Shown here: positions 5,188 through 38,690 of the stretch, one piece after another
Layout: each line of letters starts with the position of its first letter
Position numbering within the stretch: position 1 is the first letter of the stretch
Assembly: GCA_947367375.1 (NCBI GenBank)
Contig: CANBDZ010000008.1
Location: 1 to 38,936, forward strand
Direction: 5' to 3'
Source: an uncultured Bacteroidales bacterium
GTDB lineage: Bacteria > Bacteroidota > Bacteroidia > Bacteroidales > UBA932
DNA length: 38,936 nucleotides
The notes under the pieces: generated by a model
What the model saw: the letters and a program-made list of their open reading frames with translations, nothing else
The model's database searches: none
What the model was told of the DNA's origin: nothing
Position numbers and translations under genes: made by a program

Positions 5188-5191
5188 ATGA

Positions 5192-11356: not shown

Positions 11357-11360
11357 TAAC

Positions 11361-11396
11361 GAAACAGGGTAAAAATGCCCTGTTTCTTTCGTTTTT
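11361..11396 (+). terminator. Intrinsic terminator after GH10
   Basis: A 9-bp perfect stem GAAACAGGG / CCCTGTTTC (11361-11369, 11378-11386), 8-nt loop, then TTTCGTTTTT. It starts a few bases after the GH10 stop and separates the xylanase from the susCD operon. Confidence 0.8.
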
Positions 11397-14600: not shown

Positions 14601-14776
14601 CTCCTAAGGCAGGATCATTCTTTAATTATATAAGAGTGTACGCTTCAGGTAACAACCTCCTTACTTTTGCTGACTTCAAGGGTAATGACCCTGAGGCTCC
14701 AGGTTCAGGACTTGACTATGGTGTGCGCTATCCGATGACACGTCTTTTCAACCTCGGTGCACAGTTTAACTTCTAA
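11615..14776 (+). CDS. susC: SusC-like TonB-dependent outer-membrane transporter (first pair)
   Basis: The barrel half of a SusCD importer, moving oligosaccharides across the outer membrane with TonB energy. Length is 1053 aa. Signal peptide 1-26 (SGQAFAQ); CarboxypepD_reg-like domain about 27-100 (TRVTGRVLDELGEGLIGAGV); TonB-box-like ESVVVAYG at 107-114; plug about 115-230 with IRIRGVGSLNSAEPLVLVDG and ANGVILVTTKRG; then the beta-barrel, ending in an aromatic residue (GAQFNF). This is the complete classic architecture. The partner susD starts 12 nt downstream. With the second pair and the glycan-binding gene it makes up one operon closed by the terminator at 23312. It corresponds in position to XusA of Prevotella xylan loci (inference by order, not by alignment). 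Confidence 0.95.
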   Translation: MKAKKLTHLFGFVALMLLISGQAFAQNTRVTGRVLDELGEGLIGAGVVIQGTTTGTVTDLDGNYELPSVPQGAILEFSCVGYATQAVQVTGAYLDVTMKPDTRLIDESVVVAYGQQTKVTITGAVTAVGGDALLKSPVANVANALQGNLPGVSAVQASGMPGADEPVIRIRGVGSLNSAEPLVLVDGVERPFSQLDPNEIESISVLKDASATAVFGVRGANGVILVTTKRGEVGKASVTASASAAMQTISQFIDFADSYTYGQMWNYTAITDALPVEQWPGTVKIADYTPYADNGIRFSQDVMEHFRTGDMPTTFPNTDWIDYIMNDKAWQEQANVNVSGGTEKVRYFVSAGILNQNSLLKTFSNNKNETFDYQRLNYRANLDIEVSKYSQLSLTLGGRMQDRNTMGGGEGFLFRYLQGATPYAGIGVDEQGRHIVSDANIVGPFDRDALSNYYELGYENQSTNALNFDIQYKLDLSFLVKGLDFKAKASYNSEYTAQKYRQNGYGTGLTYIATLVDGKEVLRKDNVTWPIPYSEGKWGSRNWYAEASFNYNRRIGKHNIGGLLLYNQSKSYYPWDSDGSIYQSIPKGYVGLVGRVTYDYDTKYLLDLNIGYNGSENFAPGRRYGTFPSVSVGWIPSQEQWWAPMKNAISYLKFRASYGLVGNDSTNGARFLYLPGTWQFYNGSMTWNPQERGANFGVNGNWLPAVKELTAGNPNVTWETATKINLGVDAGFFKDRLHAYVDFFWEDRRDILVSNASTLPAVTSLPANYVNEGRVKNHGFEVSLNWEQKFGDFRYSISPNFAFARNKVIEMLEVPPMYAYLSRTGLPVGQRFGYDLFEFYEPGATEERYFEKYGVEMPDQVSAIKPGDCVYVDLNGDKVIDANDQKPLGYTDNPEITYSVNFNFQWKGLDFTMLWIGADHVSRQLNGYFRDQFGSTNTSALTQWVADNSWTEDNTDAILPRISFTNRVHNNRDSQAWVVDSKYVRLKNVELGYTFTPKAGSFFNYIRVYASGNNLLTFADFKGNDPEAPGSGLDYGVRYPMTRLFNLGAQFNF

Positions 14777-14788
14777 ACACTTTACGAA

Positions 14789-16819: not shown

Positions 16820-16836
16820 CATTAGAACTTATCATT

Positions 16837-19620: not shown

Positions 19621-19633
19621 TAAAGATTGACTT

Positions 19634-23293: not shown

Positions 23294-23311
23294 TCATATA
23301 TGACTCTATAT

Positions 23312-23348
23312 ATCAGGGCTGGCCTTCGGGTCAGCCTTGATTTGTTAT
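23312..23348 (+). terminator. UUCG-loop terminator of the susCD operon
   Basis: A 13-bp stem (23312-23324 with 23329-23341, two G-U wobbles) closed by a TTCG tetraloop and followed by TTGTTAT. It lies 19 nt after the stop of the glycan-binding gene and marks the end of the xylan locus. Confidence 0.88.
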
Positions 23349-23349
23349 A

Positions 23350-23521
23350 GATCCCCGGTCAAGCCGGGGATGACGGGGAGAGATTCCTCGACAAGCTCGG
23401 AATGACAAGGGGATGACTCGGAATGACAAGGGGATGACTCGGAATGACAAGGGGATGACGTGGAATCACAAGGGGATGACGTGGTTGTCATGTCGAGCGA
23501 CCGTAGGGAGTCGAGACATCT
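23350..23521. repeat. Cluster of palindromic repeats and a 21-bp tandem array
   Basis: In order: a GATCCCCGGTC / GCCGGGGATGAC palindrome (23350-23374); a GATTCC-type variant (23382-23406, ATTCC/GGAAT arms); a tandem array of 21-bp units beginning CTCGGAATGACAAGG at 23396, 23417 and 23438, with a degenerate fourth at 23459; and a 36-nt minus-oriented copy (23486-23521) matching 674-709. Units follow one another directly with no spacers, so this is not a CRISPR array. Confidence 0.85.
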
Positions 23522-23559
23522 TTAGATTGATATATTTACGTAGTTGGTTGAATTACTGA

Positions 23560-23589
23560 TTGGAAAACAGCAAAAAAATTTTATCTTTG
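23560..23589 (+). promoter_or_regulatory. Bacteroidota-type promoter for the 892-aa lipoprotein gene
   Basis: TTG at 23560-23562, 19-nt spacer, then TATCTTTG at 23582-23589, a perfect TAnnTTTG with ideal spacing. It predicts a transcript start near 23596 and a leader of about 47 nt. Confidence 0.8.
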
Positions 23590-23642
23590 CCGCGATATAC
23601 CGGATAGTCTGAAATATCATTAATTACAACTCAAATATTTTT

Positions 23643-26321
23643 ATGAAGAATTTACTTAAACTTTTGGTAGTTACTGCATTGTGCGCATTCGGTTGCGTAT
23701 TTACAGGCTGCCAGGAAAAATTGAAAGGCAACGAGTTCTCCCTTTCAGTCAAAGAGGCAGGTGCAGACTTTATCACGCTTGCAGTTACTGCATCAAAGCC
23801 AATGGAGATCGCTTACAAGGTGACAACAAAGGCTCAGCTTGTGACTCCTGCTGTTCTTTTCAAGACCGGTGAGGTCATCGAAGTTGCAGACGGCGATGTG
23901 ATCGAACTGAGGGAGGGCATCCAGCAGGACACACATTATTATGTCTATGCTGTCGCAAGATTTGACGAGACTACTTATTCTGAGAAGATTTCTCTTGAGG
24001 TCACTACAACCAAGTATGAGTTCAATGAGCTCATCACTATTGTTGAGACTTACCTTGACGGTTACAAGGCTCACATCACTGTACCGCAGGAGACCAAGGA
24101 CAGAAATCACGCTATCCGCGCAGGTTCTATGCCGCTTTCGTGGTACTACCTTATGACCAGCTCAAAAGGTCAGACAACAGTAGACGTACAGGCTATCGCT
24201 TCGAACGGTAACCCATACGAGGGACATATGTTCACAGACTCTACTATCGTCCTGAATGACAAGAATGTGATCCTCCTCGATGAGAAGGGCAACCCTGTAC
24301 TGGATGAGAATAACGAGCAGATCGACATCCACGACCCTATCGTTCCGGGTGAGCCTACTATCCTGATCGCAGGTGAGACTTATTACGGTACTCCTGAGGA
24401 TTTCAATTATGTGGTAGGCTACACAGCTCCTACAAAGGATTCCTGGTCAGTTCCTTACTTCGATCCAGAGAAGAGAGAGTGGCTTGGAGCATTCCAGAAG
24501 AAGGAGTTCTTCACCAAGGAGCCTGCTCTTTGTGACGCAACAGTTGAGATCGACATCCCTGAGGATGAGATCACAGTTACTGACGCAATGATCTATTTCG
24601 AAATGTCGGATGACGCGTACTCGTATTTCTATATCGTACTCGACAATTCTACCTATAACCAGATCCTCTCTACTTACCTCAACGGCAATGAAGACTGGTA
24701 CAGATGGTTCCTCACATCTTACATCGGATTCTATGAGTGGGGTATATTCCCTGAGACAGAGAACATTGCTGTCAATGCTGCAAGCAGCTTCATTGAGCCT
24801 CTTACCGGTGGTGAGACTTACCACGTTCTCGTGACAGTCTTCGGTGATGAGGACGGTGCTACACAGCGTTTCATCCACAAGACATTCAAGGCTAAGGACA
24901 AGACTAAGGTCGCTCCAGTAATCGAGGTGACTGCAATCGAGTCTTCAGATCCTTACACAGCAACATTCAACATCAAGGCAGGTGTAGACTCAAGAGGTAA
25001 CGTTCAGCCGATCATGGGTGCATACTGGGTATGTAACTATGCAAGAGATTTCGAACTTATGTTCAACGCTGACTACACTTATGCAACTCTCCTCAAGAAC
25101 CTCGGATGGACATTCTCTTCAGAGGAGATCGCAGCTGTGAACTCTGCAGAGGGTTACACAGTTTCATTCCCTACACTTGACGGTGAGGTTACACGTTTCG
25201 CTGCATACGGTTGCAACGACGAGTACACCTTCAACGTGATCGACGAGGAGCACAACGCAGGTTGGGCTGACTGCAAGACACCGCTTGCTGAAAACGCAGC
25301 TCCAGTGTCATCGGAGCTCTTCACTCTCCTTGAGGGTGACTGGACAGCGACTGCAACATTGAGAGCTCTCCAGCAGGAGCCAGACGGAACAACTCTTGCT
25401 TACAACGTTGACCACAAGTCAAAGATCAATATCTCTGCAACTGCGCCAGAGCTTCCTGCATCACTTGACGAGAGTGTATATGCCCTCTACGCAGGTACAG
25501 AAGAGAAGCCAGGCAAGTCAAGAGAAGAGGTTGACAATATGTTCGAGGAGCTCAAAGATCTTTCTGACCTCTTTACAGAGGCACGTCTCGTAGGTCAGAA
25601 CAGACTCCTCTGCAGCGGCTTCATGGACTTCGATCCGGCAGCTCCTACTTTGGGTGTGAACAGACTTGAGTTCCGTTCGCCATATGACCTCTTCGTGGCT
25701 ACTGACTACAGCTCTGTAGACGTGTCGCAGCTCATCTATGACTTCGGTCCGAAGTGGTTCCTCCAGGTTCAGGAGGACGGAAGCGTGATCGTGCCGTTCC
25801 ACTCTATGAAGATTCCTCCAATGAGCAACTGGCCAGGTTATGCATTCTACACAGGTGGTGTTGCTGACGGTATGGCATTCTATGATGCAAATGAGGCTTA
25901 TCCAGGATTCCCTGTAGTGATTTCTGATGACTTCAACACAATTAATATCAAGCCTATCGTTCTCAACGACGGAACAAAGGATTACTACTATTATATGAAC
26001 GCAATCGGAGTTTCTCAGCAGGGTGGTCTTGAGATCATTTCTACTGTCATCACTGACATCGTCCTCAAGAGAGGCTGGACAGAGTCAACTCCTGCAAGCT
26101 CAAGCGTAGTATACTCTGCTCCTGTCAACTCAGTGAACGCTGTCGACATGAACGGTTCGTATGTAAACGAGCTTCCAAAGGCTGCTGTCTACAAGTCAAT
26201 GACAGAGTTCAAGCCTGAGCAGCTCCCTACATACACTCTCAAGGAAAAGGCAAATGTGGTAACAAAGGAAATGGTGGATGAAACATCTGCTAAGATCCTC
26301 AGAAAATACAATCTCCAGTAA
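23643..26321 (+). CDS. Large modular lipoprotein of unknown function (892 aa)
   Basis: I do not recognise a named family. Lipobox Cys23 in FTGCQEK places it as a lipoprotein, probably outer membrane. The N-terminal third reads like Fn3/Ig-type beta-sandwiches (FSLSVKEAGADFITLAV; THYYVYAVARFDETTYSE). Further modules include YHVLVTVFGDEDG and DPYTATFNIKAG. A lipocalin-like stretch begins LLEGDWTATATLRALQQ at about 560. The C-terminal part is rich in Tyr and Trp. No catalytic motif is seen. Its stop overlaps the start of the Omp28-like gene (TAATG), so the two are translationally coupled, suggesting they act together. The modular style resembles the 768- and 1060-aa lipoproteins downstream, so all three may be related surface proteins (inference). 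Confidence 0.7.
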   Translation: MKNLLKLLVVTALCAFGCVFTGCQEKLKGNEFSLSVKEAGADFITLAVTASKPMEIAYKVTTKAQLVTPAVLFKTGEVIEVADGDVIELREGIQQDTHYYVYAVARFDETTYSEKISLEVTTTKYEFNELITIVETYLDGYKAHITVPQETKDRNHAIRAGSMPLSWYYLMTSSKGQTTVDVQAIASNGNPYEGHMFTDSTIVLNDKNVILLDEKGNPVLDENNEQIDIHDPIVPGEPTILIAGETYYGTPEDFNYVVGYTAPTKDSWSVPYFDPEKREWLGAFQKKEFFTKEPALCDATVEIDIPEDEITVTDAMIYFEMSDDAYSYFYIVLDNSTYNQILSTYLNGNEDWYRWFLTSYIGFYEWGIFPETENIAVNAASSFIEPLTGGETYHVLVTVFGDEDGATQRFIHKTFKAKDKTKVAPVIEVTAIESSDPYTATFNIKAGVDSRGNVQPIMGAYWVCNYARDFELMFNADYTYATLLKNLGWTFSSEEIAAVNSAEGYTVSFPTLDGEVTRFAAYGCNDEYTFNVIDEEHNAGWADCKTPLAENAAPVSSELFTLLEGDWTATATLRALQQEPDGTTLAYNVDHKSKINISATAPELPASLDESVYALYAGTEEKPGKSREEVDNMFEELKDLSDLFTEARLVGQNRLLCSGFMDFDPAAPTLGVNRLEFRSPYDLFVATDYSSVDVSQLIYDFGPKWFLQVQEDGSVIVPFHSMKIPPMSNWPGYAFYTGGVADGMAFYDANEAYPGFPVVISDDFNTINIKPIVLNDGTKDYYYYMNAIGVSQQGGLEIISTVITDIVLKRGWTESTPASSSVVYSAPVNSVNAVDMNGSYVNELPKAAVYKSMTEFKPEQLPTYTLKEKANVVTKEMVDETSAKILRKYNLQ

Positions 26322-27472
26322 TGAAAAGATTTTTCCAATATGCATCACTGCTCCTGGCAGCAGTGATGCTTATCTCCTGCGGAGGAGATGGCGGCTCGAC
26401 TGATGCTGGCAAGACCTTGAAGCTTACAAGCGACAAGAACCTTATCCAGACATTCGGAGGTGATTATGCAACCCTTACTGTTACGCTTGACGGACAGAAG
26501 ATCGTTGAGGACGTAATGTTCTTTGATGACAACAACGAGCTGATCGACATCACTGATTTCAAGTTCTCAACAACTGAGGTAGGTGAGTACAGCATCTGGG
26601 CTAACTACGGAACTTACACTTCCGAGACTATCACTATCAGAGCTATTGACATCCAGATTCCTTCGACTCCTGCAGACCCTAAGCCGGCAAGCACTGACTT
26701 CAAGACCAGAGCTCTCATCACAGAGTTCACTACAGTCGGTTGCAGCGCGTGTCCAAGTATGAAGGAGGTTCTTCACACTATCGAGGAAGATGCAGCATTG
26801 GCTGATATGGCTATCTGCGCTGAGGCTCATACAGGTCTTATAAATTCTGTTGCCGACCCGTGCTACCTGCACAACAGGGCTTTTGAAGATTTCTGCGTAA
26901 TCACAGGCTTCCCTACAGTGAAACTTGACCTTGCAAGTACTTACAACAACGGTAATCGTTTTGACATCAAGGAGGACCTCCAGGAGGTCGTTGCTGCAAA
27001 GGAAAGCTTTGCTCCTGGTATCGCTGTGAATTCTGTACTCAAGGATGGAAAGGTTGTGGCAAAGGTAACAGTAAAGGCAAAGGTGGCAGCCTCTTACAGA
27101 GTGGGAACTTACCTTGTAGAGGATGGCATCTATGCGAAGCAGTATAGTGCAACTGCCGACTATATGCATACACACGACAATGTGATCCGTTATATTGATG
27201 CTCAGCACAAAGGCTCGTTCTATGGAATCCCGGTAGCGGAGATTGCAGAGGGTAAGACCGGCGATGCTGTGTTCTCTTGGTTCCTTGATGAGATCTGGGA
27301 GTATGGCTCAAATATGGGCGAGATCAATGGCGGAATCGCTTGGCCGGAGCGCAAGGATGAAAATCTTCATTTGATTGTTTTCGTGACAATGTCAGACGGA
27401 CAGGGCGGATATGTGGTTGCAAACGCAATCGACTGCCCGATCAACGGCGAGACAAAGTTCGAATATAGATAA
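26321..27472 (+). CDS. Omp28-like lipoprotein with thioredoxin fold, CSAC motif
   Basis: 383 aa. Lipobox Cys20 (MLISCGGDGG); Ig-like N-terminal domain about 30-110; thioredoxin-like domain from about 128. The active-site-like motif is CSAC at 141-144 (TVGCSACPSMK), followed by a His 26 residues after the second Cys (CAEAHTG) and a cis-Pro-type GFPTVKLDL. Two further cysteines lie in between (DPCYLHNRAFEDFC). The C-terminal region is beta-rich. Omp28-related proteins are outer-membrane proteins of Bacteroidota whose function is poorly known; the CxxC suggests thiol-disulfide chemistry at the envelope. It is translationally coupled to the 892-aa lipoprotein and followed by a strong terminator. 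It is a paralogue of the three lipoproteins at 29743-33059. Confidence 0.8.
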   Translation: MKRFFQYASLLLAAVMLISCGGDGGSTDAGKTLKLTSDKNLIQTFGGDYATLTVTLDGQKIVEDVMFFDDNNELIDITDFKFSTTEVGEYSIWANYGTYTSETITIRAIDIQIPSTPADPKPASTDFKTRALITEFTTVGCSACPSMKEVLHTIEEDAALADMAICAEAHTGLINSVADPCYLHNRAFEDFCVITGFPTVKLDLASTYNNGNRFDIKEDLQEVVAAKESFAPGIAVNSVLKDGKVVAKVTVKAKVAASYRVGTYLVEDGIYAKQYSATADYMHTHDNVIRYIDAQHKGSFYGIPVAEIAEGKTGDAVFSWFLDEIWEYGSNMGEINGGIAWPERKDENLHLIVFVTMSDGQGGYVVANAIDCPINGETKFEYR

Positions 27473-27496: not shown

Positions 27497-27531
27497 AAGG
27501 AAGTCCCAAATTCTGGGACTTCCTTTGTTTT
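27497..27531 (+). terminator. Intrinsic terminator after the Omp28-like gene
   Basis: A perfect 12-bp stem AAGGAAGTCCCA (27497-27508 with 27514-27525), 5-nt loop, then TTGTTTT. It separates the first and second envelope transcription units. Confidence 0.92.
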
Positions 27532-27552: not shown

Positions 27553-27586
27553 TTGTTGTATAATCCGATAAAAGTCTGTACCTTTG
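27553..27586 (+). promoter_or_regulatory. Bacteroidota-type promoter for the TlpA-to-1060-aa operon
   Basis: TTG at 27556-27558 (another at 27553-27555), 20-nt spacer, then TACCTTTG at 27579-27586, a perfect TAnnTTTG. It predicts a start near 27594 and a leader of about 53 nt before the TlpA-like gene. Confidence 0.82.
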
Positions 27587-27646
27587 TCCTTATTATGGCT
27601 TAATGTAAATCAGCCACTTTCTTTAAAAACTTAAGTAAATTTATTT

Positions 27647-28135
27647 ATGAGAACATTCCTTTTGAGCATCGTAGCACTTATGGTGTCTGCTATTGCTGTA
27701 GCACAGGTTCCATCTGTAACAGTTGAAAACGCTAAGGGCGAAACAGTGAACACAAAGACCCTTATCAAAGAAGGCAAGCCAATGATCGTATCTTTCTGGT
27801 CAACATCGTGCAAGCCTTGCATCCGTGAGCTCGATGCTATTTATGACGCTCTCCCTGATTGGCTTGAGGAGGCTGATTTCCGTGTAGTAGCTGTGTCTAC
27901 TGACGACAGCCGTCTTCTTGCAAAGGCAAAGTCATTCGCTGAAGGCCGTGGCTGGGGTGAGGACTTCACACTCCTCTTCGACAAGAACCAGGACTTCATG
28001 AGAGCAATGAACGTTTCAGTGGTTCCTCATGTGTTCGTACTTGACGGTACAGGCAAGGTGGTGTATTCACACACTTCATATGTGCCAGGTAACGAGCTCG
28101 AACTCCTTGAGGCTATCAAGAAATGCAGCAAATAA
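27647..28135 (+). CDS. TlpA-like periplasmic thioredoxin
   Basis: 162 aa with a cleavable signal peptide (cut near residue 20, AIAVAQ) and no lipobox, so periplasmic. A single thioredoxin/AhpC-TSA-type domain carries CKPC at 55-58 in SFWSTSCKPCIRE, and the cis-Pro in SVVPHVFVLDG. Such proteins reduce or exchange disulfides in exported proteins. It is the first gene of an operon that goes on to encode a barrel and three thioredoxin-fold lipoproteins, so it may supply reducing power to them (inference). The next gene begins 33 nt downstream. No DsbD/CcdA-type electron donor is present in the window. Confidence 0.92.
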   Translation: MRTFLLSIVALMVSAIAVAQVPSVTVENAKGETVNTKTLIKEGKPMIVSFWSTSCKPCIRELDAIYDALPDWLEEADFRVVAVSTDDSRLLAKAKSFAEGRGWGEDFTLLFDKNQDFMRAMNVSVVPHVFVLDGTGKVVYSHTSYVPGNELELLEAIKKCSK

Positions 28136-28168
28136 TCCTAAGGAACAACTAAACTGACCTCTATAAAT

Positions 28169-29743
28169 ATGAGACTTTTCATTACATTCGTCGGCATCCT
28201 TATGTCAGCGTCCATCCTCTCAGCTCAGGATGAGGGCTATCTTACTGGTAGCTTTGAAACAACTGACCACGCCTATGTGAAGGATGAGGCCAACAAGTTC
28301 ACGCCTGCAGATGATCCGTTCGGATCTAACAACTATCTGAAGCTGGACTATTATAAAGGTAACTTCTCTGCAGGTATGCAGCTCGAGGGTTATGCTCCGG
28401 TACTTATCGGATTCCCAGATGAACTCAGCAAGTTCGCTTTGAGCAACCTCTATGCAAGCTGGAGAGATGAGGACTTCCAGATCACAGCAGGTACATTCTA
28501 CGAGCAGTTCGGCAGCGGACTTCTTTTCAGAAGCTGGGAGGACCGTCTTCTTGGTCTGAACAACGCAGTTATGGGTGCACGCTTTGCCTACAACTTTGAG
28601 GATAAGGTGGCATTCAAGGCTTTCTGGGGAACCCCACGTCTCGGAATGGATCTTTCTGACACTCAGCTCAGAGGAGCTGACCTCAGCGTTTCCCTTTCCA
28701 ATATCCTCGGCTTTGACGAAGTGATGCTTGCTGTTGAGGGATCTGTACTCAACAGATACGAGAAGATCAGCCTTGACGCTGAAGAGGCAGGCGGAAAGCC
28801 TACTTCAACAGGTTTCTCGGGAAGACTTAACTTCGACTGGAACGGTATGTTCTTCAAGGGTGAGTATGTTGACGTCGGCAAGAAGCTCGTGTCTCTTACT
28901 CCTAAGAGAGGTAACGCACAGCTCGTTGAGATGGGTTATAACGGTCGTGGACTCGGAGTCACTCTTACTGGACGCCGTCTCGAGTGGATGGGCCAGAAGA
29001 TCTCTTCAAGGTCTCTCTCTACTGCCAACCTCATCTCATATGTGCCTGCAATGAGCACCCAGTACACTTATATGCTCACTACATTGCATCCATACAACCC
29101 TCAGGTAGGTGATGAGTCTACTCACACTTTCAACAGCGGTGAGATGGGCGGACAGCTTGACGCGTTCTACAACTTCCGTCGCGGTACCAAGATCGGTGGC
29201 AAGAGAGGCATGAAGGTTCACGCGAACTTTTCTACTTACTATACTCTCGCTCAGGAAGGAAGCTACACCCCTGGCAACCTTCTTTTCCGTGACTTCAGCT
29301 TCGACCTCGAGAAGCAGTGGACCAAGGAGTTCAAGATGGTTCTCCTCTACTCTATGCAGGAGTACAATCCTACTTACGGTAACTTCAAGACCACTTGGCT
29401 CTCTAACATCATGGTGGCTGACCTCCTCTACAAGTGGACTCCTACATTCTCTACACGTATGGAACTCCAGTACCTTACTACTCAGGAGGATAAGAAGGAC
29501 TGGATGGCTGCTCTCCTCGAGGTGAACTTCGCACCTCACTGGAGCATCTGGGGAAGCGACATGTACAACCATGGCTCAACAAAGATGCATTACTACAATG
29601 CCGGTGTAAGCTACACCAAGGGACGTACCCGCCTCGCAGCAGGTTACGGACGCTACAAGGACGGATTCATCTGCTCAGGCGGAGTATGCCGTCAGATCCC
29701 ACAGTACACCGGAGCTAACTTCAGCCTTACAACTTCATTCTAA
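28169..29743 (+). CDS. Predicted outer-membrane beta-barrel, DUF6029-like
   Basis: 524 aa with a signal peptide ending SILSAQ (about residue 20). The mature part has repeating amphipathic strands with many aromatic residues (LYASWRDEDFQITAGTFYEQFG; YYNAGVSYTKGRTRLAAGYGRY) and ends in TTSF, a barrel-type C-terminus. I assign it to the DUF6029 group from recall of its sequence style, not from a search. Its stop overlaps the next start (TAATG), so it is coupled to a thioredoxin-fold lipoprotein. It could be a channel, or an anchor or export partner for the lipoproteins encoded after it; no direct evidence distinguishes these. Confidence 0.75.
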   Translation: MRLFITFVGILMSASILSAQDEGYLTGSFETTDHAYVKDEANKFTPADDPFGSNNYLKLDYYKGNFSAGMQLEGYAPVLIGFPDELSKFALSNLYASWRDEDFQITAGTFYEQFGSGLLFRSWEDRLLGLNNAVMGARFAYNFEDKVAFKAFWGTPRLGMDLSDTQLRGADLSVSLSNILGFDEVMLAVEGSVLNRYEKISLDAEEAGGKPTSTGFSGRLNFDWNGMFFKGEYVDVGKKLVSLTPKRGNAQLVEMGYNGRGLGVTLTGRRLEWMGQKISSRSLSTANLISYVPAMSTQYTYMLTTLHPYNPQVGDESTHTFNSGEMGGQLDAFYNFRRGTKIGGKRGMKVHANFSTYYTLAQEGSYTPGNLLFRDFSFDLEKQWTKEFKMVLLYSMQEYNPTYGNFKTTWLSNIMVADLLYKWTPTFSTRMELQYLTTQEDKKDWMAALLEVNFAPHWSIWGSDMYNHGSTKMHYYNAGVSYTKGRTRLAAGYGRYKDGFICSGGVCRQIPQYTGANFSLTTSF

Positions 29744-30834
29744 TGAAAAATCTTCTTTACATATCAGCTCTCGCCCTCATGGCCGCATGCTCAGGAACAG
29801 TGGACCCTGAGGACGATCAGGTCATCATCCCTGATGAGTACACCGAGCCTTTTACCCTTTATGTCGACAAGACAACAGTTCAGGCTGACGGAAAAGATGT
29901 CGTCACCTTCTCGCTCAAAGATGCCTATGGAAGGGAAATGCTTGATGACAAGAACACACTTCAAGGAATCAACATCACTTCTGCAGAGGGTGTCAGAGTT
30001 ACCAGAATGGAGAAGACAGCCTCTTTCATCGCGAACGGCACTTACCATTTTACAGCAAAATATAAGGGAAAGGAAAGCGCAAACACTGTTGAAGTTGTAG
30101 CGGAGAATAGAGTAGCATATGAAAAGTACCATAAGAACGTCGCTATATATAAGGTAACAGCGACATGGTGCGGCCCATGTGCAGTAATGACCAGAGCTCT
30201 TGCAGCCCTCAACGAAGATGCAAAGTCTCATTCAGTTGAGCTTTGCTGGCACGGACAGGATGAACTTGCTGTCACTCCTGACGGATGGGATTATGACTAT
30301 GGCTCTTTCCTTATGTCTTATTTCGGTGGATCGGGTTTCCCTACAGTCATACTTGACCTGAAGAAGAACACTATTGAAAACACATCAAGCGGACTCGAGA
30401 AGGAAATCTGGAATCTTCGTGCAGATTATCCAGCAACTTGCGGAGTCAAGCTTTCTACAGAGTATGATGAGTCGGCTGGCGTCATCAATGCAACAGCTGA
30501 GCTGACATCGTCCACAGGAGGAAGCTATGACATGGGTATGGTACTTCTTCTCAACAATCAGATCGTTCAGAGTGGTACAAATGACGGAGGTAAGTACTCC
30601 CACATCGTGAGAGCTACAACAGGTAACTTCTTCATGTACTCTTCTGAGAGCCTGACCAAGCTTGAGAAAGATGGCAAAATGACATTCTCGCAGCAGATTC
30701 CGACAGGAAACCATAAAGTAGAGGATCTGTCAGTGGTTGCATTCGCTCTTGTTCCAGACGGAGACTATGCAAGGATGGACAACATCGTGCAGGTCCAGGC
30801 TGGTGAGTCTGTAGATTATATCTTGAATAAGTAA
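29743..30834 (+). CDS. Thioredoxin-fold lipoprotein, CGPC motif
   Basis: 363 aa. Lipobox Cys16 in LMAACSGTVDPEDD; the acidic residues just after the Cys fit a surface-export signal. Ig-like domain about 35-118 (FTLYVDKTTVQADGKDVVTF). The thioredoxin-like domain starts near 130 with ATWCGPCAVM: CGPC at 143-146 is the classical thioredoxin motif. A His follows 24 residues after the second Cys (LCWHGQDE), then cis-Pro-type GFPTVILDL. A beta-rich C-terminal domain follows. It is the first of three tandem paralogues that share CSGTVD at the mature N-terminus. Start overlaps the barrel gene's stop; the next gene begins 1 nt after its own stop. Confidence 0.85.
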   Translation: MKNLLYISALALMAACSGTVDPEDDQVIIPDEYTEPFTLYVDKTTVQADGKDVVTFSLKDAYGREMLDDKNTLQGINITSAEGVRVTRMEKTASFIANGTYHFTAKYKGKESANTVEVVAENRVAYEKYHKNVAIYKVTATWCGPCAVMTRALAALNEDAKSHSVELCWHGQDELAVTPDGWDYDYGSFLMSYFGGSGFPTVILDLKKNTIENTSSGLEKEIWNLRADYPATCGVKLSTEYDESAGVINATAELTSSTGGSYDMGMVLLLNNQIVQSGTNDGGKYSHIVRATTGNFFMYSSESLTKLEKDGKMTFSQQIPTGNHKVEDLSVVAFALVPDGDYARMDNIVQVQAGESVDYILNK

Positions 30835-30835
30835 T

Positions 30836-31984
30836 ATGTTAAAGAAGATAGCATATATATTCGCCCTCTTGGCTTTCGCTGCGTGTTCGGGCACTGTGGA
30901 TCCGGAGGCCGATAACACGGACCAACCTGTAGGAAATCCTATGGAGGAGGTTCCGGAAGGCGTGCTTCGTATCTTTGCCGACAAGACTGAAATCATGGCA
31001 GACGGCAACGAAGTCGTGACATTTACAGTGATGTTCGGCAAGGAAGATGTCAGCACAGCGCAGACTCTTGTACTTTTGAGAGAGTACGAAGGGGAAGTGA
31101 AGCGTTCAAAGTCAGCTAACAAGTTCTCTACAGTCACAGCGGGTACATATAGCTTTACCGCAGAGTACTACTATGGCGGCAAGTACTACACCGACAACTC
31201 TGTCACAGTTGAGGCTAAGCCATATTTCTCAGGTGAGGCAAAGGCATATGAGAGACGTGTGCTGGGAGTGTATTTCACTTCGACCGGATGCACCAGCTGT
31301 CCGGCTGCGACTAAGGGAATAAAGAACCTTCAGGACGCTAATCCAGAAATGATTTCGGTGGTTGCCTTCCACTCGCATATGGGAGGAATTGAAGATCCGA
31401 TGACCATCTCTGAGACAACCCTTTTCAATGCTGTCCTCGGTGGTTTCGACGGTCTTCCAAGACTGTTCTGGAACATGCGTAAGGGCACAAACTTCATAGG
31501 TCCTACCTTTGACCAGGGCTTCGCTGAGGAAATTGCAGCATACGAACCTCAGTGCGGAGTGTCGATTAAGACCGAGCCAATACCAGATGCATATGACGGT
31601 ATGCCGGAAGATCACATTTCGCCGTATCAGATAAAGGTGGGTATAACATCGAATATACCGTCAGTATATCGCTACCTTGTGTTTGTCGTTGAAGACGGTA
31701 TCGTGGCTGAGCAGACAGGAAATCGTGATTATGTCCATAATAACGTAGTAAGAGCCGTTCTGACAAGCGAAAAGGGTGACAAACTCAATGACAACCTGCC
31801 TTTTACAACTGGAGTCGAAGTGAGCGCAACCAAGATTTTGGAGATCTCGCCTGAGTGGAATTGCGATAACATCCGCATCATCGTAGCGGCGACTACCTCA
31901 TCGGACGGAGGCTTTTCATTCGTAGCGAACAACGTCGCAGAGTGCAAACTCGGAGAGAGCGTGTCATATAAATATGCAGAGTAA
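30836..31984 (+). CDS. Thioredoxin-fold lipoprotein, CTSC motif
   Basis: 382 aa. Lipobox Cys17 in FAACSGTVDPEAD. Ig-like domain about 42-127 (LRIFADKTEIMADGNEVVTF), clearly homologous to that of the preceding gene. The thioredoxin-like domain has CTSC at 152-155 (TSTGCTSCPAATK), a His 24 residues after the second Cys (VAFHSHMGG), and GLPRLFWNM in the cis-Pro position. A beta-rich C-terminal domain ends SYKYAE. It differs from the CGPC neighbour mainly in the two residues between the cysteines, which usually set redox potential. One nt separates it from the next gene. Confidence 0.84.
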   Translation: MLKKIAYIFALLAFAACSGTVDPEADNTDQPVGNPMEEVPEGVLRIFADKTEIMADGNEVVTFTVMFGKEDVSTAQTLVLLREYEGEVKRSKSANKFSTVTAGTYSFTAEYYYGGKYYTDNSVTVEAKPYFSGEAKAYERRVLGVYFTSTGCTSCPAATKGIKNLQDANPEMISVVAFHSHMGGIEDPMTISETTLFNAVLGGFDGLPRLFWNMRKGTNFIGPTFDQGFAEEIAAYEPQCGVSIKTEPIPDAYDGMPEDHISPYQIKVGITSNIPSVYRYLVFVVEDGIVAEQTGNRDYVHNNVVRAVLTSEKGDKLNDNLPFTTGVEVSATKILEISPEWNCDNIRIIVAATTSSDGGFSFVANNVAECKLGESVSYKYAE

Positions 31985-31985
31985 T

Positions 31986-33059
31986 ATGAAGATATTCAGA
32001 TATATAGCGTCAGCTGTCGCTGCCGTGGCCATATTCGCCTGCTCAGGAACTGTCGACGAGTCGTCACTTCCTGTGCTCGAGGTCAGCGACGCCGAGATCG
32101 ATCTCGCAAGCGAGACCGAGGCGGTGTTCACTGTGACATATAACGGAGCGGATGTGACTGACAAGTCTCAGATAGTTTCGACTGCTGAGGGACTTGCAGG
32201 CAATGTGTTCACACCTTCAGCTGAGGGCTCGGCATCGTTCTATGCCATTTATGAAGGTCTTGAGTCAAACACTGTGACTGTCAATGTGGTCAACACAGAT
32301 GTGAAAGTCGAGTCAAAATATGTAAGGCACGCCCTCATAACTGAGTTCACAGGAGCCTCTTGCGCATTCTGTCCGGAAGGATATGACAATATGATGCTTC
32401 AGCTTTCAAAGCCGGCGATGGCTTCGTATAAAAAGAACGCTCACATCTGCGCCTTCCACTCTGAGGAGATGGGTCAGGATTCGCTTGCTATTGCTGCGAC
32501 TATGGATGTGAAGAACCTTTTCGGCAGCCTGGAGCTTCCTTCATATTCAGTCGATCTTCGTGAAGCCGGTGGACTGAACACTGAGGGTCTTGCTGGATTC
32601 AATGCAGCGCTCAAGGCTTCATTCCAGGAGCACACTCCACACTGCGGAGTAGCCGTTTCATCTTCTTTGACAGAGGACGGAGCTTCTGTGCAGATCGAGG
32701 CTAAGATCACTTCAGAGCTTACATCAGAGTACCGTGTGGTGGTTCTTGTGGTTCAGGACAGAATCGTTGGCTATCAGAAGCATGGCACTTACGGCGAACT
32801 TGATGATTATAAGCATATGCACGTTGTACGCCAGGTGGTGACCAAGTACGCCGGCACATTTACCGGTGAGAAGATGACTGATGACGGTAAGATTGCCGCT
32901 GGTCAGGAGGTTTCAAAGTCATGGACTGTTCCAGTCGATTCGAGATGGGTGCTTGAGAACACGCAGGTTTATGCAATTGCCCTGGACAAGGACGGACACG
33001 TGAACAATATGAACATCTGCGCCATTGACGGCGGAGATTCAGGATATGATCTGAAATAA
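31986..33059 (+). CDS. Thioredoxin-fold lipoprotein, CAFC motif
   Basis: 357 aa. The track starts at 31974, but MKIFRYIASAVAAVAIFAC at 31986 gives the proper lipoprotein signal and follows the previous stop by one nt. Lipobox Cys19 in IFACSGTVDESS. A shorter Ig-like domain covers about 28-102. The thioredoxin-like domain has CAFC at 126-129 (TGASCAFCPEG), a His 29 residues after the second Cys (ICAFHSEEMG), and ELPSYSVDL in the cis-Pro position. The C-terminal beta domain resembles the other paralogues (VVVLVVQDRIVGYQKHGTY). It is the third of the tandem set. Confidence 0.84.
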   Translation: MKIFRYIASAVAAVAIFACSGTVDESSLPVLEVSDAEIDLASETEAVFTVTYNGADVTDKSQIVSTAEGLAGNVFTPSAEGSASFYAIYEGLESNTVTVNVVNTDVKVESKYVRHALITEFTGASCAFCPEGYDNMMLQLSKPAMASYKKNAHICAFHSEEMGQDSLAIAATMDVKNLFGSLELPSYSVDLREAGGLNTEGLAGFNAALKASFQEHTPHCGVAVSSSLTEDGASVQIEAKITSELTSEYRVVVLVVQDRIVGYQKHGTYGELDDYKHMHVVRQVVTKYAGTFTGEKMTDDGKIAAGQEVSKSWTVPVDSRWVLENTQVYAIALDKDGHVNNMNICAIDGGDSGYDLK

Positions 33060-33076
33060 TATAACAACACCATACT

Positions 33077-35383
33077 ATGAAAAAAACATTTAGTCTTTTA
33101 TTGACAGCGCTTCTCCTTGCGGGATTTACAGCTTGTGAGAAGCCGCAGCCGGAGGATGACACCAAGAAGCCGGACACAGAAAATACCGAGAAGCCGGATA
33201 ATGGCGAAGGTAACGGTAACGGCGAAGGAAACGGTAACGGTAATGAAGAAGTGGGTGGAGTCGACAAGAACCTTCCGCAGTTCGAGTTCCCGTTCATTGA
33301 CGAATTTCCTCTCGAGTGCGGAAACCTCATCGCAGAGGGTTCTGAGGTGGGAGTGACTATTGAGGTTACCAAGGTTGAAGACCAGAACTTTGTGTTCGAA
33401 CTTCGTCCAGGCCCTATGGTACAGTCCTTCAAGATAGATGTGTATCCTTTGTCTCAGCTCTACAACAACCTTCTCAATGACAAGGCCTATGGTCTTTTGA
33501 CATCTTCAGAGTCTTGGGCTGTGAACGAGCGTATCCGTGAGTATCTCTTCAATGAGAGCGGAAGCGGTGGATATGCTTTCAGCATCAAGGATTTCCCAAG
33601 CGAGGATGACTTCCTTCAGATCGAGTTCGACTGGATGAACACTGCATACGCAGCAGCTTCTGCTGTTGCAATTCCTGACTGCGACTATGTGATTGCAGTT
33701 GTTGCAAGTACAGAGGAGTCAATCAGCAGCGTTACTCAGGAGGATCTTACACTCTGCTTCGTACACACTACAAGCCAGCCGCTCATCGGTGATCCGCAGT
33801 GTGAGATCGAGGTAAATACAGGATATACAGCATTCGGAGTACAGCATTATCTCAATTCTGACGCAGCTGCGGTATATTTCTTCGGCTACCTCACTTCAGA
33901 GATTGATGCATATATCGATGCATTCGGTGACACATTGTTCCGTGATTTCATCCGTACACGCGTGACTTCACCGTCAATTCCAAATGACCCTAACAATCCT
34001 GAGAGCCTTTATTACTCAGTAAACTACGGTGAGTCTGCAGACCACAGAATCCTCAGCACTACTTGCGCTGTGGCAGTGGACGCAAACCTTACACCGCAGG
34101 AGGGCTACAGCCGTCGTGACTTCCATCTCAAGGAGATTCCGGAGGATATTCCTGAGCCTGAACTTTCTGTTGATGTCCTCGAGGAAAGAGTTGCTTCTTC
34201 ATATGTGGAGTTTGACGTAAACTTTACAGCTGATTGCCAGACAGTGTTCTACAATGTGTTCCCTGTTTCATATCTTCAGACTATCGAGGCTATGAGTGAC
34301 AAGGAGAAGAGAACACTTGCACGATACATCAGAGATTTCGGCTACGGTTGCCACAATCCTAACTTTGCATGGAATGACAGCACAGGTGAGGCTACTGGTA
34401 GCGGTGCAGTCGTAAGACTTGATGCAGTCAGCTCTTTTGTTGCGATGAACGTAGCTAACGGCCCTATCATGCCTGGCAACTCTTATGCAGTGGTTTATGT
34501 GGGACGTAACGGAGCTCAGCAGCTTTCAGGCTTGAACATCTCCGAGACTTTCACAACTGACGAGAGAAACCTCACTTCACCAGACGGCTTCAATGCAACT
34601 GATCTCAAGCTCGTTCTTGACAATCCGGGCAGAACACAGTTCAGAGGTACCATCACTTATGATCCTTCGGTAGTTTCAATGGTTTATGTTCAGTACATGA
34701 CAGCTGACAACAACCCAGGTCTCGATGAGAGCAACTCTTGGAGCGAGTGGATGGAGTTCATCTTCGGTTCAGGTACTTCAAATATGCTGGTCAATGCATG
34801 GCCTACAGAGCCTAGCGGACGCGACGGCCTCACCTGGACAGGTATGAATCCTGACACAGACTACACTGTCTTCATGTGTGCTGAGGACTTCGACGGAAAC
34901 GTCAGCCCTATGTACTTCGAGACAATCAGAACTTCTGAGATACAGGTAGGACCGGATCCTACAATCAATATGTCCCTCGTAGCGTCAAATTACGATAACT
35001 ATGACTGGACAGTGAAGTACGAAATCGACCACGACGTAGAGTACTTCCTCTATTGCTACACTGACAGCCCAGCTGATCTTGCTGCTCACATGCCAGGCCT
35101 CAACAAGGGTCACATGAACAACATCAAGGATTCAGGCTTCAGCTATGAGGACTGGGTGAACGGTATCTACGAGTGGGTTGCCGGCGGCTTCGAGGAGAAT
35201 GGCGGCGGTATGCGTGCCGAGAGCGACACTTCGCAGGATTGGGCTGGTGACCAGACCGTGATTGCAGCTTGTATCGCAGCGGGACGTGACGCTGACGGCG
35301 CTCCTGTCTACAAACTCTATCACCTCATCTGCCAGGGCGGAAAGGCTCAGACTCTTGAGGAGATCTTCGGTATAACAGAATAA
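33077..35383 (+). CDS. Modular lipoprotein of unknown function (768 aa)
   Basis: No family recognised. Lipobox Cys20 in GFTACEKPQ, then an acidic Lys/Asp/Glu linker and a Gly/Asn/Glu low-complexity tract (GEGNGNGEGNGNGNEE, about 44-59) that would hold the folded part away from the membrane. The rest appears to be several Fn3-like beta modules of about 130-150 residues (e.g. PELSVDVLEERVASSYVEF, NATDLKLVLDNPGRTQFRG, INMSLVASNYDNYDWTVKYE). It contains few cysteines. No enzyme motif is visible. It begins 17 nt after the CAFC lipoprotein and is followed by a 57-nt AT-rich gap before the 1060-aa gene, with no terminator between them. Confidence 0.72.
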   Translation: MKKTFSLLLTALLLAGFTACEKPQPEDDTKKPDTENTEKPDNGEGNGNGEGNGNGNEEVGGVDKNLPQFEFPFIDEFPLECGNLIAEGSEVGVTIEVTKVEDQNFVFELRPGPMVQSFKIDVYPLSQLYNNLLNDKAYGLLTSSESWAVNERIREYLFNESGSGGYAFSIKDFPSEDDFLQIEFDWMNTAYAAASAVAIPDCDYVIAVVASTEESISSVTQEDLTLCFVHTTSQPLIGDPQCEIEVNTGYTAFGVQHYLNSDAAAVYFFGYLTSEIDAYIDAFGDTLFRDFIRTRVTSPSIPNDPNNPESLYYSVNYGESADHRILSTTCAVAVDANLTPQEGYSRRDFHLKEIPEDIPEPELSVDVLEERVASSYVEFDVNFTADCQTVFYNVFPVSYLQTIEAMSDKEKRTLARYIRDFGYGCHNPNFAWNDSTGEATGSGAVVRLDAVSSFVAMNVANGPIMPGNSYAVVYVGRNGAQQLSGLNISETFTTDERNLTSPDGFNATDLKLVLDNPGRTQFRGTITYDPSVVSMVYVQYMTADNNPGLDESNSWSEWMEFIFGSGTSNMLVNAWPTEPSGRDGLTWTGMNPDTDYTVFMCAEDFDGNVSPMYFETIRTSEIQVGPDPTINMSLVASNYDNYDWTVKYEIDHDVEYFLYCYTDSPADLAAHMPGLNKGHMNNIKDSGFSYEDWVNGIYEWVAGGFEENGGGMRAESDTSQDWAGDQTVIAACIAAGRDADGAPVYKLYHLICQGGKAQTLEEIFGITE

Positions 35384-35440
35384 TGTGAAAACTGAAAAAA
35401 GTTATATATACCATTTTTTATTAATTAATCCCTATTTATT

Positions 35441-38400
35441 ATGAAAAGACAATTTATGAAAGGCCTTATGGCTTTTTGCGCAGGTGTCATGACATTGTGC
35501 GCAGCGTCTTCTCTTTTCGTATCTTGTGACAAGTACGATGATTCTGAGCTCCGTGAGCAGATCTCAGCACTCGACACAAGAGTAAAGAACCTTGAGGCTA
35601 TCAAGGAGCAGCTCGCAGCTCTCACAGCTCGCGTTGACGCTCTTTATACCCTCACTTTCCAGGTTACTGATGCAAACGAACTTCAGTACTCATTTGACGG
35701 TGGAAAGACTTGGAAAAGCACAGGTATCGTTCTCGCAGCACAGTGCGAGCATGAGTGCCCTCCTTGCCAGTATGTTCCATGCGATCATGAGTGCCCGCAG
35801 GTGTCACTTGTTGACAACGGCGACAGCGTGACTATCAAGATCGGTGACGCAGAGTTCACTATCGAGAAGCCACAGGAAATCGTGTTCGAGATCCGCGCTG
35901 GTAAGGTTTACTTCGAGTCAGAGAGCACAATGAAGGTTTCTATCAAGTCTTCAGGTATCGAGGACATCACAGTTATGTCAGCTCCTAAGGGCTGGTATGC
36001 TGAGATCAACTCTGAGGGAATGGTAGAGATTACAGCTCCTAACTACGAGGACTGCCAGGAAGGCTACGGCTGGGACGAGAACGACGAGTACTATGAGATC
36101 CCTGCTAAGTGCGCAGCTTCAGGTTATGTAAAGGTACATGCATGCTCAGTTGACGGTAAGTGCATGGTAGGTAAGCTTCCTGTAGAGGTTGCAAGCCAGC
36201 CGCTCATCGTTAAGGCTTTCGGTGGAACAGCTTACTTCAAGCTTGCTGGTACAGCTAGCTGGTGGAACGCTACATTCTACTATGGCGTTTCTGAGAAGGA
36301 GAACCTTGCAGCTGACACAGCTGACCTCCTCAAGCGTATGAATGACGGTGACTGGTCACTTTCTGATGACTATCTTTCTAACTACGGTGAGCTTACTGAC
36401 ATCGAGGTTTCTATCGCTGAGCTTCTTGGCGAGGAGCCACAGGTTGGTAAGGAGTACGTTATCTGGGCTGCTGTAGAGAATTCTAACGCAATGCCTTATG
36501 ACGTTGAGGACCTCGTTCTTGCATACTACTCTCCACTTAACGTAACTATCACTGAGAATGAGGCTGCAAAGACAGCTTACAATGTTGAGGTGACTGTTGA
36601 TGTTCAGGGTGCTGATTCATACGTTGCAGTAGCAATGCCAGAGTCACAGCTCCAGTGGACTTCAGTTGACGACATCAAGGAGCAGATGGCTATGGCAATG
36701 GCTGAGGGAATGTACTATGGTAAGCTCTACAATGAGAGCTACACTGGTTCAGCTCTCGACATCGCAGCTGGTACAAGCTACTCAATGAGCGGCAACTACT
36801 CACCAGATTCAGATGTATACGTATTCATCCTTCCAGTTGACGGACGTTCTAAGGAGGATTACACTCCAGCTGACGTAGTTTACGCACAGTTCGCTACAGC
36901 TCCTCTTACTGCAGGTGGTTCAATCGACCTTACTGCTGAGCAGGTAACTTCATACATGGGCGAGGTTTACGACTATGAGATCTGGGAATATGTAATGCAG
37001 GAGATCGTTCTCGATCCTTACACTCAGCTTGGTGTTGCTGTTACACCTTCAACAAACGGCGAGTGGTCAGCATTCTACTATGGTTGGATGGACGAGGCTA
37101 CTTACGCTGATTACGGTGCATACGAAGAGGACGTTGTAGACTACCTCCTCCAGAACTCATATGGTAACACACCTGCTGAGATCAAGGAGTGGCCTCTTTA
37201 CCTTACTGAGACAGTTTCTCCAGCTACTACAATGCACTTCGTTGCATTCATCGTTGATGCAGCTGGTAAGTATGGTAAGCTTGCTCACGTAGAGGCAACT
37301 ACTCAGGAGCTCGTTAAGGCTGACTTCGTTTGGGCTGAGCCTTTCACAACTAACCTCCAGGACGGCGTTCTCAAGAACTCACAGACTCTCCAGTTCACTC
37401 CTGTATTCGAGGATGGTAAGGAGCCTGCTTCTTACAAGTACGTTCTTGCACAGACTATGTACTACAACCAGTACGAGGGTAAGGATGACGCACAGATGGC
37501 AGAGGAGCTCTTCTTCTCTACTTCATCTTCAGTGAAGACTGTTTCTGCTGAGGAACTTGCTAACGGTGTTCTCTATGTTGAGGGTCACTCATATGGCTAT
37601 CCTTACTACTTTGCTATCGTTCCTATCGACGCTGAGGGTAACCCTGGCGCATCTGCAGCTATCCTTGAGTACGAGTGTGTATTCGAGATGGACGCAGTTG
37701 TAACCGAGGGTGCTGAGTTCGAGGCAACTGCACCGCAGATCAACATCAACTTCCCAGACGAGTGGGAGTTCTATCCTGATTACGGTTGGGGTGACGCTGC
37801 TTACTACGGCCACGGCTACAGCGAGTATGACGGACTCTATCAGTTCTTCTATGAGATCAACTTCGACTTCACTCCAGCTGCTGGTACTGAGGTTTGCGCA
37901 GTTCTCGTTGACGCTGAGTCTTACGACCTTACTGCAGCTGCTAACGTGAAGGCAGGAAGCGCTTGGGCAGGTTCTTATGGTTCATGGGCTACAGTAACAG
38001 GTACAGAGTACACTGAGTCTTCATTCAAGTACTATAGCCACTATGAGAACACTCCAGCTCCAAACGTAGTTCTCGTTGTAAGCTGGGTTGACGCTAACGG
38101 TACATACTACTACAGAGAGTATCCACTCCAGGAGCAGTTCCAGTACTATGCTGACCTCATGAAGGAGTACATCGCTGGTACTAAGGAAGTTCCTTCAAAG
38201 CCAGAGGCTGAGGCTCTTGCAACTCCAGCAGGAAAGCAGTGGGCATTTGACTGGGTTGACTATGCTATGGAGATGGAAATGGAGCACATGTCTTCATGCA
38301 TCGACCTTGGTGTTTCAATCGAGGGTTACTTCATGGCAGGTATCGACTACGAGGCTATCTATGGTCCAGACGCAGCAGGAATGTGGATGGCAGGTGTAGA

Positions 38401-38623
38401 AGCATACTTCGAGGTTGAGGCAACAGACGAGACTTCAGGTCTTATCTGGCTTCTCCAGAGCGACTGGGAGACAGGTGAGCTTGCAAGAGAAATGTACATC
38501 GAGTACAGCGATCTTACAGAGACCACTTGTACATTCAACGCACCAGAGCTTATGCTCAACAATGTTGTGGCAACTCTCATGACAGAGAACGTTACAGTAA
38601 TGCCACAGGGTATTGCAATGTAA
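35441..38623 (+). CDS. Large lipoprotein with N-terminal coiled coil, cysteine cluster and repeated beta modules (1060 aa)
   Basis: Lipobox Cys29 in FVSCDKYDD. Residues 35-68 form a heptad-like coiled coil (SELREQISALDTRVKNLEAI), like the N-terminal region (DUF4988/PL29 N-terminal type) found in many Bacteroidales surface lipoproteins. A short segment FDGGKTWKSTG follows, then a cluster of five cysteines at 102, 106, 109, 114 and 118, with a near-duplicated C(E/D)HECP unit. Next comes an Ig-like domain (about 120-250, with further cysteines), then several Fn3-like modules very rich in Tyr, Glu and Ala up to the C-terminus. No lyase catalytic region is seen. Codon use is strongly biased (Lys almost all AAG), hinting at high expression. 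It is the last gene of the operon, followed by two hairpins. Confidence 0.75.
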   Translation: MKRQFMKGLMAFCAGVMTLCAASSLFVSCDKYDDSELREQISALDTRVKNLEAIKEQLAALTARVDALYTLTFQVTDANELQYSFDGGKTWKSTGIVLAAQCEHECPPCQYVPCDHECPQVSLVDNGDSVTIKIGDAEFTIEKPQEIVFEIRAGKVYFESESTMKVSIKSSGIEDITVMSAPKGWYAEINSEGMVEITAPNYEDCQEGYGWDENDEYYEIPAKCAASGYVKVHACSVDGKCMVGKLPVEVASQPLIVKAFGGTAYFKLAGTASWWNATFYYGVSEKENLAADTADLLKRMNDGDWSLSDDYLSNYGELTDIEVSIAELLGEEPQVGKEYVIWAAVENSNAMPYDVEDLVLAYYSPLNVTITENEAAKTAYNVEVTVDVQGADSYVAVAMPESQLQWTSVDDIKEQMAMAMAEGMYYGKLYNESYTGSALDIAAGTSYSMSGNYSPDSDVYVFILPVDGRSKEDYTPADVVYAQFATAPLTAGGSIDLTAEQVTSYMGEVYDYEIWEYVMQEIVLDPYTQLGVAVTPSTNGEWSAFYYGWMDEATYADYGAYEEDVVDYLLQNSYGNTPAEIKEWPLYLTETVSPATTMHFVAFIVDAAGKYGKLAHVEATTQELVKADFVWAEPFTTNLQDGVLKNSQTLQFTPVFEDGKEPASYKYVLAQTMYYNQYEGKDDAQMAEELFFSTSSSVKTVSAEELANGVLYVEGHSYGYPYYFAIVPIDAEGNPGASAAILEYECVFEMDAVVTEGAEFEATAPQININFPDEWEFYPDYGWGDAAYYGHGYSEYDGLYQFFYEINFDFTPAAGTEVCAVLVDAESYDLTAAANVKAGSAWAGSYGSWATVTGTEYTESSFKYYSHYENTPAPNVVLVVSWVDANGTYYYREYPLQEQFQYYADLMKEYIAGTKEVPSKPEAEALATPAGKQWAFDWVDYAMEMEMEHMSSCIDLGVSIEGYFMAGIDYEAIYGPDAAGMWMAGVEAYFEVEATDETSGLIWLLQSDWETGELAREMYIEYSDLTETTCTFNAPELMLNNVVATLMTENVTVMPQGIAM

Positions 38624-38627
38624 TATC

Positions 38628-38648
38628 AAAAAGGTATAGGCCTTTTTT
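38628..38648 (+). terminator. First hairpin terminator after the 1060-aa gene
   Basis: AAAAAGG (38628-38634) pairs with CCTTTTT (38641-38647), loop of 6 nt, ending in a T-run. It begins 5 nt after the stop codon. Confidence 0.7.
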
Positions 38649-38656
38649 CAGACAAT

Positions 38657-38690
38657 AAGGTCCGACGGGAAACCGCCGGACCTTTCTATT
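38657..38690 (+). terminator. Second hairpin terminator, GAAA tetraloop
   Basis: AAGGTCCGACGG (38657-38668) pairs with CCGCCGGACCTT (38673-38684) with one A-C mismatch and a GAAA loop, followed by TCTATT. It lies between convergent genes, so it may also serve the fhs transcript. Confidence 0.78.

Follow-up and report, generated by a model that had tools for sequence, protein, structure and literature searches.

The locus described here raises the question of what a TlpA-like thioredoxin, an outer-membrane barrel and several thioredoxin-fold lipoproteins might accomplish together in a single putative operon. The window, that is, the whole stretch of DNA analyzed, comprises 38,936 nucleotides from an uncultured Bacteroidales bacterium of the gut (UBA932 lineage; assembly GCA_947367375.1, contig CANBDZ010000008.1; genome G000 in our comparisons), and its reading frames and translations revealed seven tightly packed genes on the forward strand at positions 27647 to 38623. 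The first gene, tlpA (27647..28135), encodes a TlpA/ResA-like thioredoxin of 162 amino acids (PF00578) with a CKPC motif at 27809-27820 and a signal peptide without a lipobox. It is followed by a gene for a DUF6029 outer-membrane beta-barrel of 524 amino acids (28169..29743) and by three genes for Omp28-type thioredoxin-fold lipoproteins. Comparisons with relatives support the view that TlpA, DUF6029 and Omp28 constitute a triad conserved across the Bacteroidota and a dedicated thiol module, and we consider the chances even that this module functions as a reductive thiol relay, running from DsbD through TlpA and a cysteine pair of the barrel to a surface thioredoxin, with surface disulfides as the end substrates.

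In order to evaluate the conservation of the gene order, genome contigs were scanned with the barrel alignment, and the best 80 loci from 583 relatives (Bacteroidales, Flavobacteriales, Chitinophagaceae and others) were compared. A tlpA gene was located immediately 5' of the barrel gene in 74 of 78 loci, compared to 6 of 795 positions at least three genes away. Omp28 genes were found at position -2 in 48 of 76 loci and at position +1 in 22 of 74, compared to 2 of 405 positions at least six genes away; they were either the next gene 3' of the barrel, mostly in Bacteroidales, or divergently oriented beyond tlpA, mostly in Flavobacteriia. The CxxC motif was present in all TlpA-type proteins in both sets inspected (30/30 and 83/83). 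An earlier, sequence-only reading of the window had proposed a thiol system and had made that proposal depend on retention of the gene order and of the CxxC pairs in relatives; both were retained.

The barrel and Omp28 also occurred together across genomes. Among 198 Bacteroidales genomes, 109 had both DUF6029 and Omp28, 3 had DUF6029 alone, 13 had Omp28 alone and 73 had neither (Fisher P = 2e-36, which is only a guide because the genomes are related). The three genomes with DUF6029 alone were members of a divergent barrel group considered below. In the 13 genomes with Omp28 alone, the domain was mostly contained within long proteins, several of them without CxxC; in one of these genomes (G192), tlpA came next after Omp28 close to where the available sequence stops, and the contig may be broken there. 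The complete genome of a genus mate (G008) contained neither DUF6029 nor Omp28.

The barrel in the window is a full-length member of the DUF6029 family (PF19494; E value 1.2e-170; 569 bits compared to a cutoff of 27; positions 13-538). Its only cysteines, Cys502 and Cys507, are in a C-S-G-G-V-C motif encoded at 29672..29689, in the last loop of the barrel. The motif C-x-[GSA]-G-[VIL]-C just before the last barrel strand was invariant in the four sets of barrels examined (31/31, 84/84, 7/7 and 29/29; about 150 in total, although some species may be repeated between sets), and about half of the aligned barrels had exactly two cysteines. An AlphaFold2 model built with 49 alignment rows (mean pLDDT, 91.4) predicted 24 strands. 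With both termini taken as periplasmic, the outer loops averaged 14.6 residues and the inner turns 3.9, a pattern that fits known barrels and places Cys502 and Cys507 on the outer side. By strand parity in this single-chain model, the pair would occupy a short hairpin of the last outer loop, either at the mouth of the pore or within it, and it may serve as a redox relay rather than as a structural disulfide.

The best Protein Data Bank (PDB) matches of the barrel model in Foldseek were 24-strand ushers (TM score, 0.45 to 0.50; ∼10% identity) amid hundreds of generic barrels, a likeness that we read as indicating a large pore rather than family membership. PDB matches of the barrel profile to recA and to a capsid protein were judged spurious. 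DUF6029 has been assigned no function, and the only functional idea previously attached to it is a tentative one, based on a reported HHpred resemblance to Wzi-like porins (PMC9603273), according to which the barrel would serve in polysaccharide export or attachment. We regard this as the least probable of the explanations considered here, in that 24 strands were predicted compared to 18 in Wzi-type barrels and no polysaccharide export genes were recognized as recurring neighbors.

The thioredoxin-fold lipoproteins that follow the barrel gene are encoded at 29743..30834 (363 amino acids; CGPC at 30169-30180), 30836..31984 (382 amino acids; CTSC at 31289-31300) and 31986..33059, with an alternative start at 31974 (357 amino acids; CAFC at 32361-32372). 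The presumed surface partner is triplicated in the lineage of the window. A fourth such lipoprotein is encoded in a separate unit upstream, at 26321..27472 (CSAC at 26741-26752). The genes starting at 26321, 30836 and 31986 passed the curated cutoff of the Omp28 family PF11551 (E values of 2.5e-15 for the gene at 30836 and 4.7e-21 for the gene at 31986). There was no direct PF11551 match for the gene at 29743-30834, which was assigned to the Omp28 superfamily via relatives, as its product matched an Omp28 protein at positions 4680-6098 of locus L131 (E value, 1e-11). None reached the 150-bit cutoff of the Omp28 lipoprotein subfamily NF033782, with scores of only 28 to 51 bits. Seven Pfam Omp28 matches were found in the window's own genome in all.

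In an alignment of 72 Omp28 sequences with a mean column identity of 16%, the only invariant columns were the lipobox cysteine and the CxxC pair (C126/C129), and the cis-proline position P185 was at least 90% conserved. A search of the PDB with one single Omp28 sequence gave no match. A profile of the 72 sequences did match solved thioredoxins, which covered the CxxC/cis-proline region, as well as HBP35 of Porphyromonas gingivalis, and Omp28 was therefore assigned to the thioredoxin fold. Judged from their sequences, the Omp28 proteins have the CxxC active site and downstream cis-proline of thioredoxin-fold oxidoreductases; reductase activity has been shown for HBP35 only. With regard to an acidic lipoprotein export signal, at least two acidic residues were present at positions +2 to +9 after the lipobox in 75% of Omp28 proteins, compared to 53% of other predicted lipoproteins. 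The Omp28 lipoproteins may be exposed on the cell surface.

Further evidence came from seven divergent barrels (L137-L142 and L162) that matched the main profile weakly. All seven retained the adjacent TlpA and the cysteine pair (RRGGPxCxxGxCYEV). No recognizable Omp28 was found beside any of the seven. In its place, each was neighbored by an AhpC/TSA-type CxxC protein, five with a type IX secretion system (T9SS) sorting domain, which in L142 was weak and below the Pfam cutoff, and two with a lipobox. As far as can be read from these proteins, the third place is occupied in both barrel groups by a CxxC protein of the thioredoxin fold that has a way to reach the surface.

This replacement bears on two other explanations. 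In one, TlpA is a dedicated folding helper for a structural disulfide of the barrel, comparable to DsbA and DsbC for LptD, the barrel is an ordinary transporter, and the surface cap merely happens to be a thioredoxin-fold lipoprotein. The stricter adjacency of TlpA and the barrel, relative to that of Omp28, and the restriction of about half of the barrels to two cysteines would fit such a role. However, such a role leaves unexplained why a CxxC thioredoxin fold is encoded in the third place with both barrel subfamilies, despite two different protein families, and why no part of Omp28 is under tighter constraint than CxxC; we consider it unlikely, though the strongest of the competing explanations.

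In the other, DUF6029 is an outer-membrane pore, usher- or SLAM-like, through which Omp28 and the large lipoproteins would be exported or assembled, while TlpA would keep this cargo in the reduced state. No route across the outer membrane has been established for surface lipoproteins (PMC11885536), and the near-obligate co-occurrence with Omp28, the usher likeness and the existence of double-barrel operons with large lipoproteins (L046, L048, L050 and L051) are all in keeping with export. Nevertheless, the usher matches are weak and generic, and DUF6029 is missing from 43% of the sampled Bacteroidales. Furthermore, most partners of the divergent barrels end in a T9SS tail and thus have an export route of their own, an argument against the barrel as a mere exporter of its partner. 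An export pore seems improbable, more so than a folding helper. The barrel was also considered as a strict T9SS accessory, an idea that was rejected as the barrel was present without SprA in four genomes (G000, G126, G059 and G113). No SprA match was found in G000, G008 or G126; the bacterial family of these genomes appears to lack type IX secretion, which most of the sampled order has kept.

Insight into a potential electron source for the relay came from a family mate (G126), in which genes for a large lipoprotein, DsbD, Omp28, TlpA, DUF6029 and a second Omp28 form one tight same-strand run. This DsbD (654 amino acids; DsbD_N, DsbD_TM and a thioredoxin domain) was the only one found in G126, and this operon context suggests that electrons may pass from DsbD to TlpA. 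DsbD was rejected as a common neighbor of the module, because G126 was the only genome in which they shared an operon. One DsbD match each was found in G000, G008 and G126, and no match to VKOR or DsbB was found in these three genomes, of which G000 is 86% complete. The presence of DsbD without VKOR or DsbB matches favors a reductive direction for any electron flow through the module.

In the relay that we propose, the TlpA-like protein would receive electrons from DsbD in the inner membrane and, as the presumed periplasmic electron donor, would hand them to the DUF6029 barrel with its cysteine pair in the last outer-side loop. The barrel pair would in turn exchange with surface proteins of the thioredoxin fold, which are Omp28 lipoproteins here and of the AhpC/TSA type in other lineages, and these would reduce or isomerize disulfides of proteins outside the cell. 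The reducing pathway driven by DsbD would thereby be extended to the cell surface. The more specific claim that the barrel pair itself carries reducing equivalents from periplasmic TlpA to surface thioredoxins, making the barrel an electron conduit through the outer membrane based on thiol-disulfide exchange, is a tentative one to which we give somewhat less than an even chance.

Several points weigh against the relay. The cysteine pair of the barrel may be a structural disulfide that closes the hairpin; its outer-side placement was read from strand parity in a model of one chain rather than from coordinates or from a complex; and a lone outer-side pair is not enough to span the membrane, leaving the access of TlpA to it unexplained. 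DsbD lies within the module operon of just one relative. No Omp28 gene was found within three genes of the barrel in 6 of 60 well-covered loci, and the absence of the module from 43% of the sampled Bacteroidales indicates that it is not a core function. Members of the Omp28 family can act without a described thiol step, as in trypsin recruitment (PMC9477747). Finally, the case for the relay, to which we give no more than even chances, is built from comparisons of sequences and models.

The seven genes are separated, in order, by 33 nucleotides, a 1-nucleotide TAATG overlap, and 1, 1, 17 and 57 nucleotides. A Bacteroides-type -7 promoter box, TACCTTTG, is located at 27579..27586, 60 nucleotides 5' of tlpA, with TTG ∼20 nucleotides further 5', and a hairpin search located a hairpin with a T-run, resembling an intrinsic terminator, at 27497..27525 at the end of the upstream unit; together, these predicted signals set the seven-gene unit apart from the upstream pair. 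Two adjacent hairpins at 38628..38684 (38628-38647 and 38657-38684; z score, -4.8), which fold far better than shuffled sequences, form a probable terminator. All of these elements are on the forward strand. The single promoter and distal double terminator bracketing seven genes in the sequence-only reading were recovered as predicted signals, as were its five CxxC motifs, four of them in proteins with a lipobox.

The last two genes of the operon encode large lipoproteins with no Pfam family, g768 (33077..35383; 768 amino acids) and g1060 (35441..38623; 1,060 amino acids). Relatives of g768 were found 3' of Omp28 genes in 13 loci (L040-L052), all from nearer relatives, among them Alistipes, Tidjanibacter and Phocaeicola coprocola; fewer relatives of g1060 were found. 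The g768 model (pLDDT, 82.8) consists of Ig/Fn3-like domains strung in a row, and the cysteines of both proteins, other than that of the lipobox, are poorly conserved. The idea that the giant lipoproteins are clients of thiol exchange was discarded on these grounds, even as the core of the same proposal, in which a dedicated thiol system serves the outer membrane or the cell surface, was strengthened by the gene order, the CxxC motifs, the barrel cysteine pair, the DsbD operon and the replacement of Omp28. The giant lipoproteins are best seen, from their distribution, as lineage-specific partners or add-ons. In the double-barrel operons, the first DUF6029 barrel is followed by lipoproteins of 800 to 1,040 amino acids and the second by Omp28 genes and g768.

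The Omp28 gene upstream of the operon is paired with a gene for an 892-amino-acid large lipoprotein (23643..26321, forward strand), a pair that is retained in L039-L042. Further Omp28 genes, each beside a large lipoprotein, are present on three other contigs of the same genome (C11, C29 and C67; L132, L133 and L134), and the pairing of Omp28 with a large repeat lipoprotein appears from these gene arrangements to be a recurrent theme in this genome. In the intergenic region at 23294-23642, a unit resembling GGGGATGACTCGGAATGACAA is repeated several times in nearly identical form.

The same strand also carries SusC/SusD-type genes and a GH10-type enzyme a short distance 5' of the module (9587-21298). 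The statement of the sequence-only reading that no SusCD is present therefore applies to the operon itself and not to its surroundings. Translations read by eye indicated a GH51-type arabinofuranosidase, a hybrid two-component regulator, the GH10-type enzyme and two SusC/SusD-type pairs at 3238-21298, directly upstream, a region that looks like a xylan utilization locus. The module was not considered a member of a polysaccharide locus, as its upstream neighbors in relatives were folP or manA-like genes.

The components of the module are of known kinds; it is their arrangement at the outer membrane that is undescribed in the searchable literature. No description of a TlpA-DUF6029-Omp28 unit was found in open-access full text, with most subscription papers outside reach. 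In searches by name, DUF6029 was only briefly tied to Wzi and Omp28 matched mostly unrelated proteins; Omp28, thioredoxin and DUF6029 were unmentioned in the Bacteroidota BAM complex papers examined. LptD/LptE likewise combines an outer-membrane barrel that has functionally important cysteines with a lipoprotein, but the cysteine positions differ and there is no dedicated TlpA partner. The DsbD pathways, in which DsbD serves DsbC, DsbG, CcmG and the TlpA/ResA family, also feature a TlpA-fold CxxC protein, and a DsbD match was found in the window's own genome and, in the case of one relative, within the operon. However, the known branches end in the periplasm, whereas in the module the TlpA-like protein is joined by an outer-membrane barrel and by either lipoproteins of the surface type or T9SS cargo. 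Omp28 proteins, among them P. gingivalis PG2173 (PDB 2r2c) and Paraprevotella 00502, share the same C-terminal domain, and some family members are annotated as selenoproteins (NF045500), in line with a redox active site. Paraprevotella 00502 differs in being a T9SS trypsin-recruiting protein with Ig-like domains, for which no thiol chemistry has been described (PMC9477747).

The closest Omp28 relative with a solved structure in the profile search was HBP35 (PG0616; PDB 5y1a), which combines a thioredoxin domain with an Omp28-like beta domain (E value, 2.5e-23 over 235 residues). HBP35 has CxxC-dependent insulin reductase activity and reaches the cell surface (PMC2907840); it differs in being T9SS cargo on A-LPS instead of a lipoprotein, and no association with TlpA or DUF6029 has been described for it. 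Hemin is bound by HBP35, and an HBP35 mutant shows poor growth when hemin is lacking (PMC2907840); one gene of the TlpA family, which may or may not correspond to this tlpA, appears in an iron study of P. intermedia (PMC10434189). This would suit a module that takes up heme, metal or another ligand, with the barrel as pore and Omp28/HBP35-type proteins as surface binders. It seems very unlikely that this is its role, as hemin binding persisted in a truncated HBP35 that lacked the thioredoxin domain, so that CxxC would not be required, and in the loci read neither a TonB-dependent receptor nor a metal transporter recurred within the module.

No electron source beyond the outer membrane has been described in searchable papers for surface thioredoxins of the HBP35 type. 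The module joins a periplasmic reductant, a barrel with an invariant cysteine pair and a surface-type thioredoxin, which makes the question of the electron source directly testable, and a functional proposal for DUF6029 follows from it. If the conduit is real, it would explain how Bacteroidota restore the reduced state of their surface thioredoxins outside the cell.

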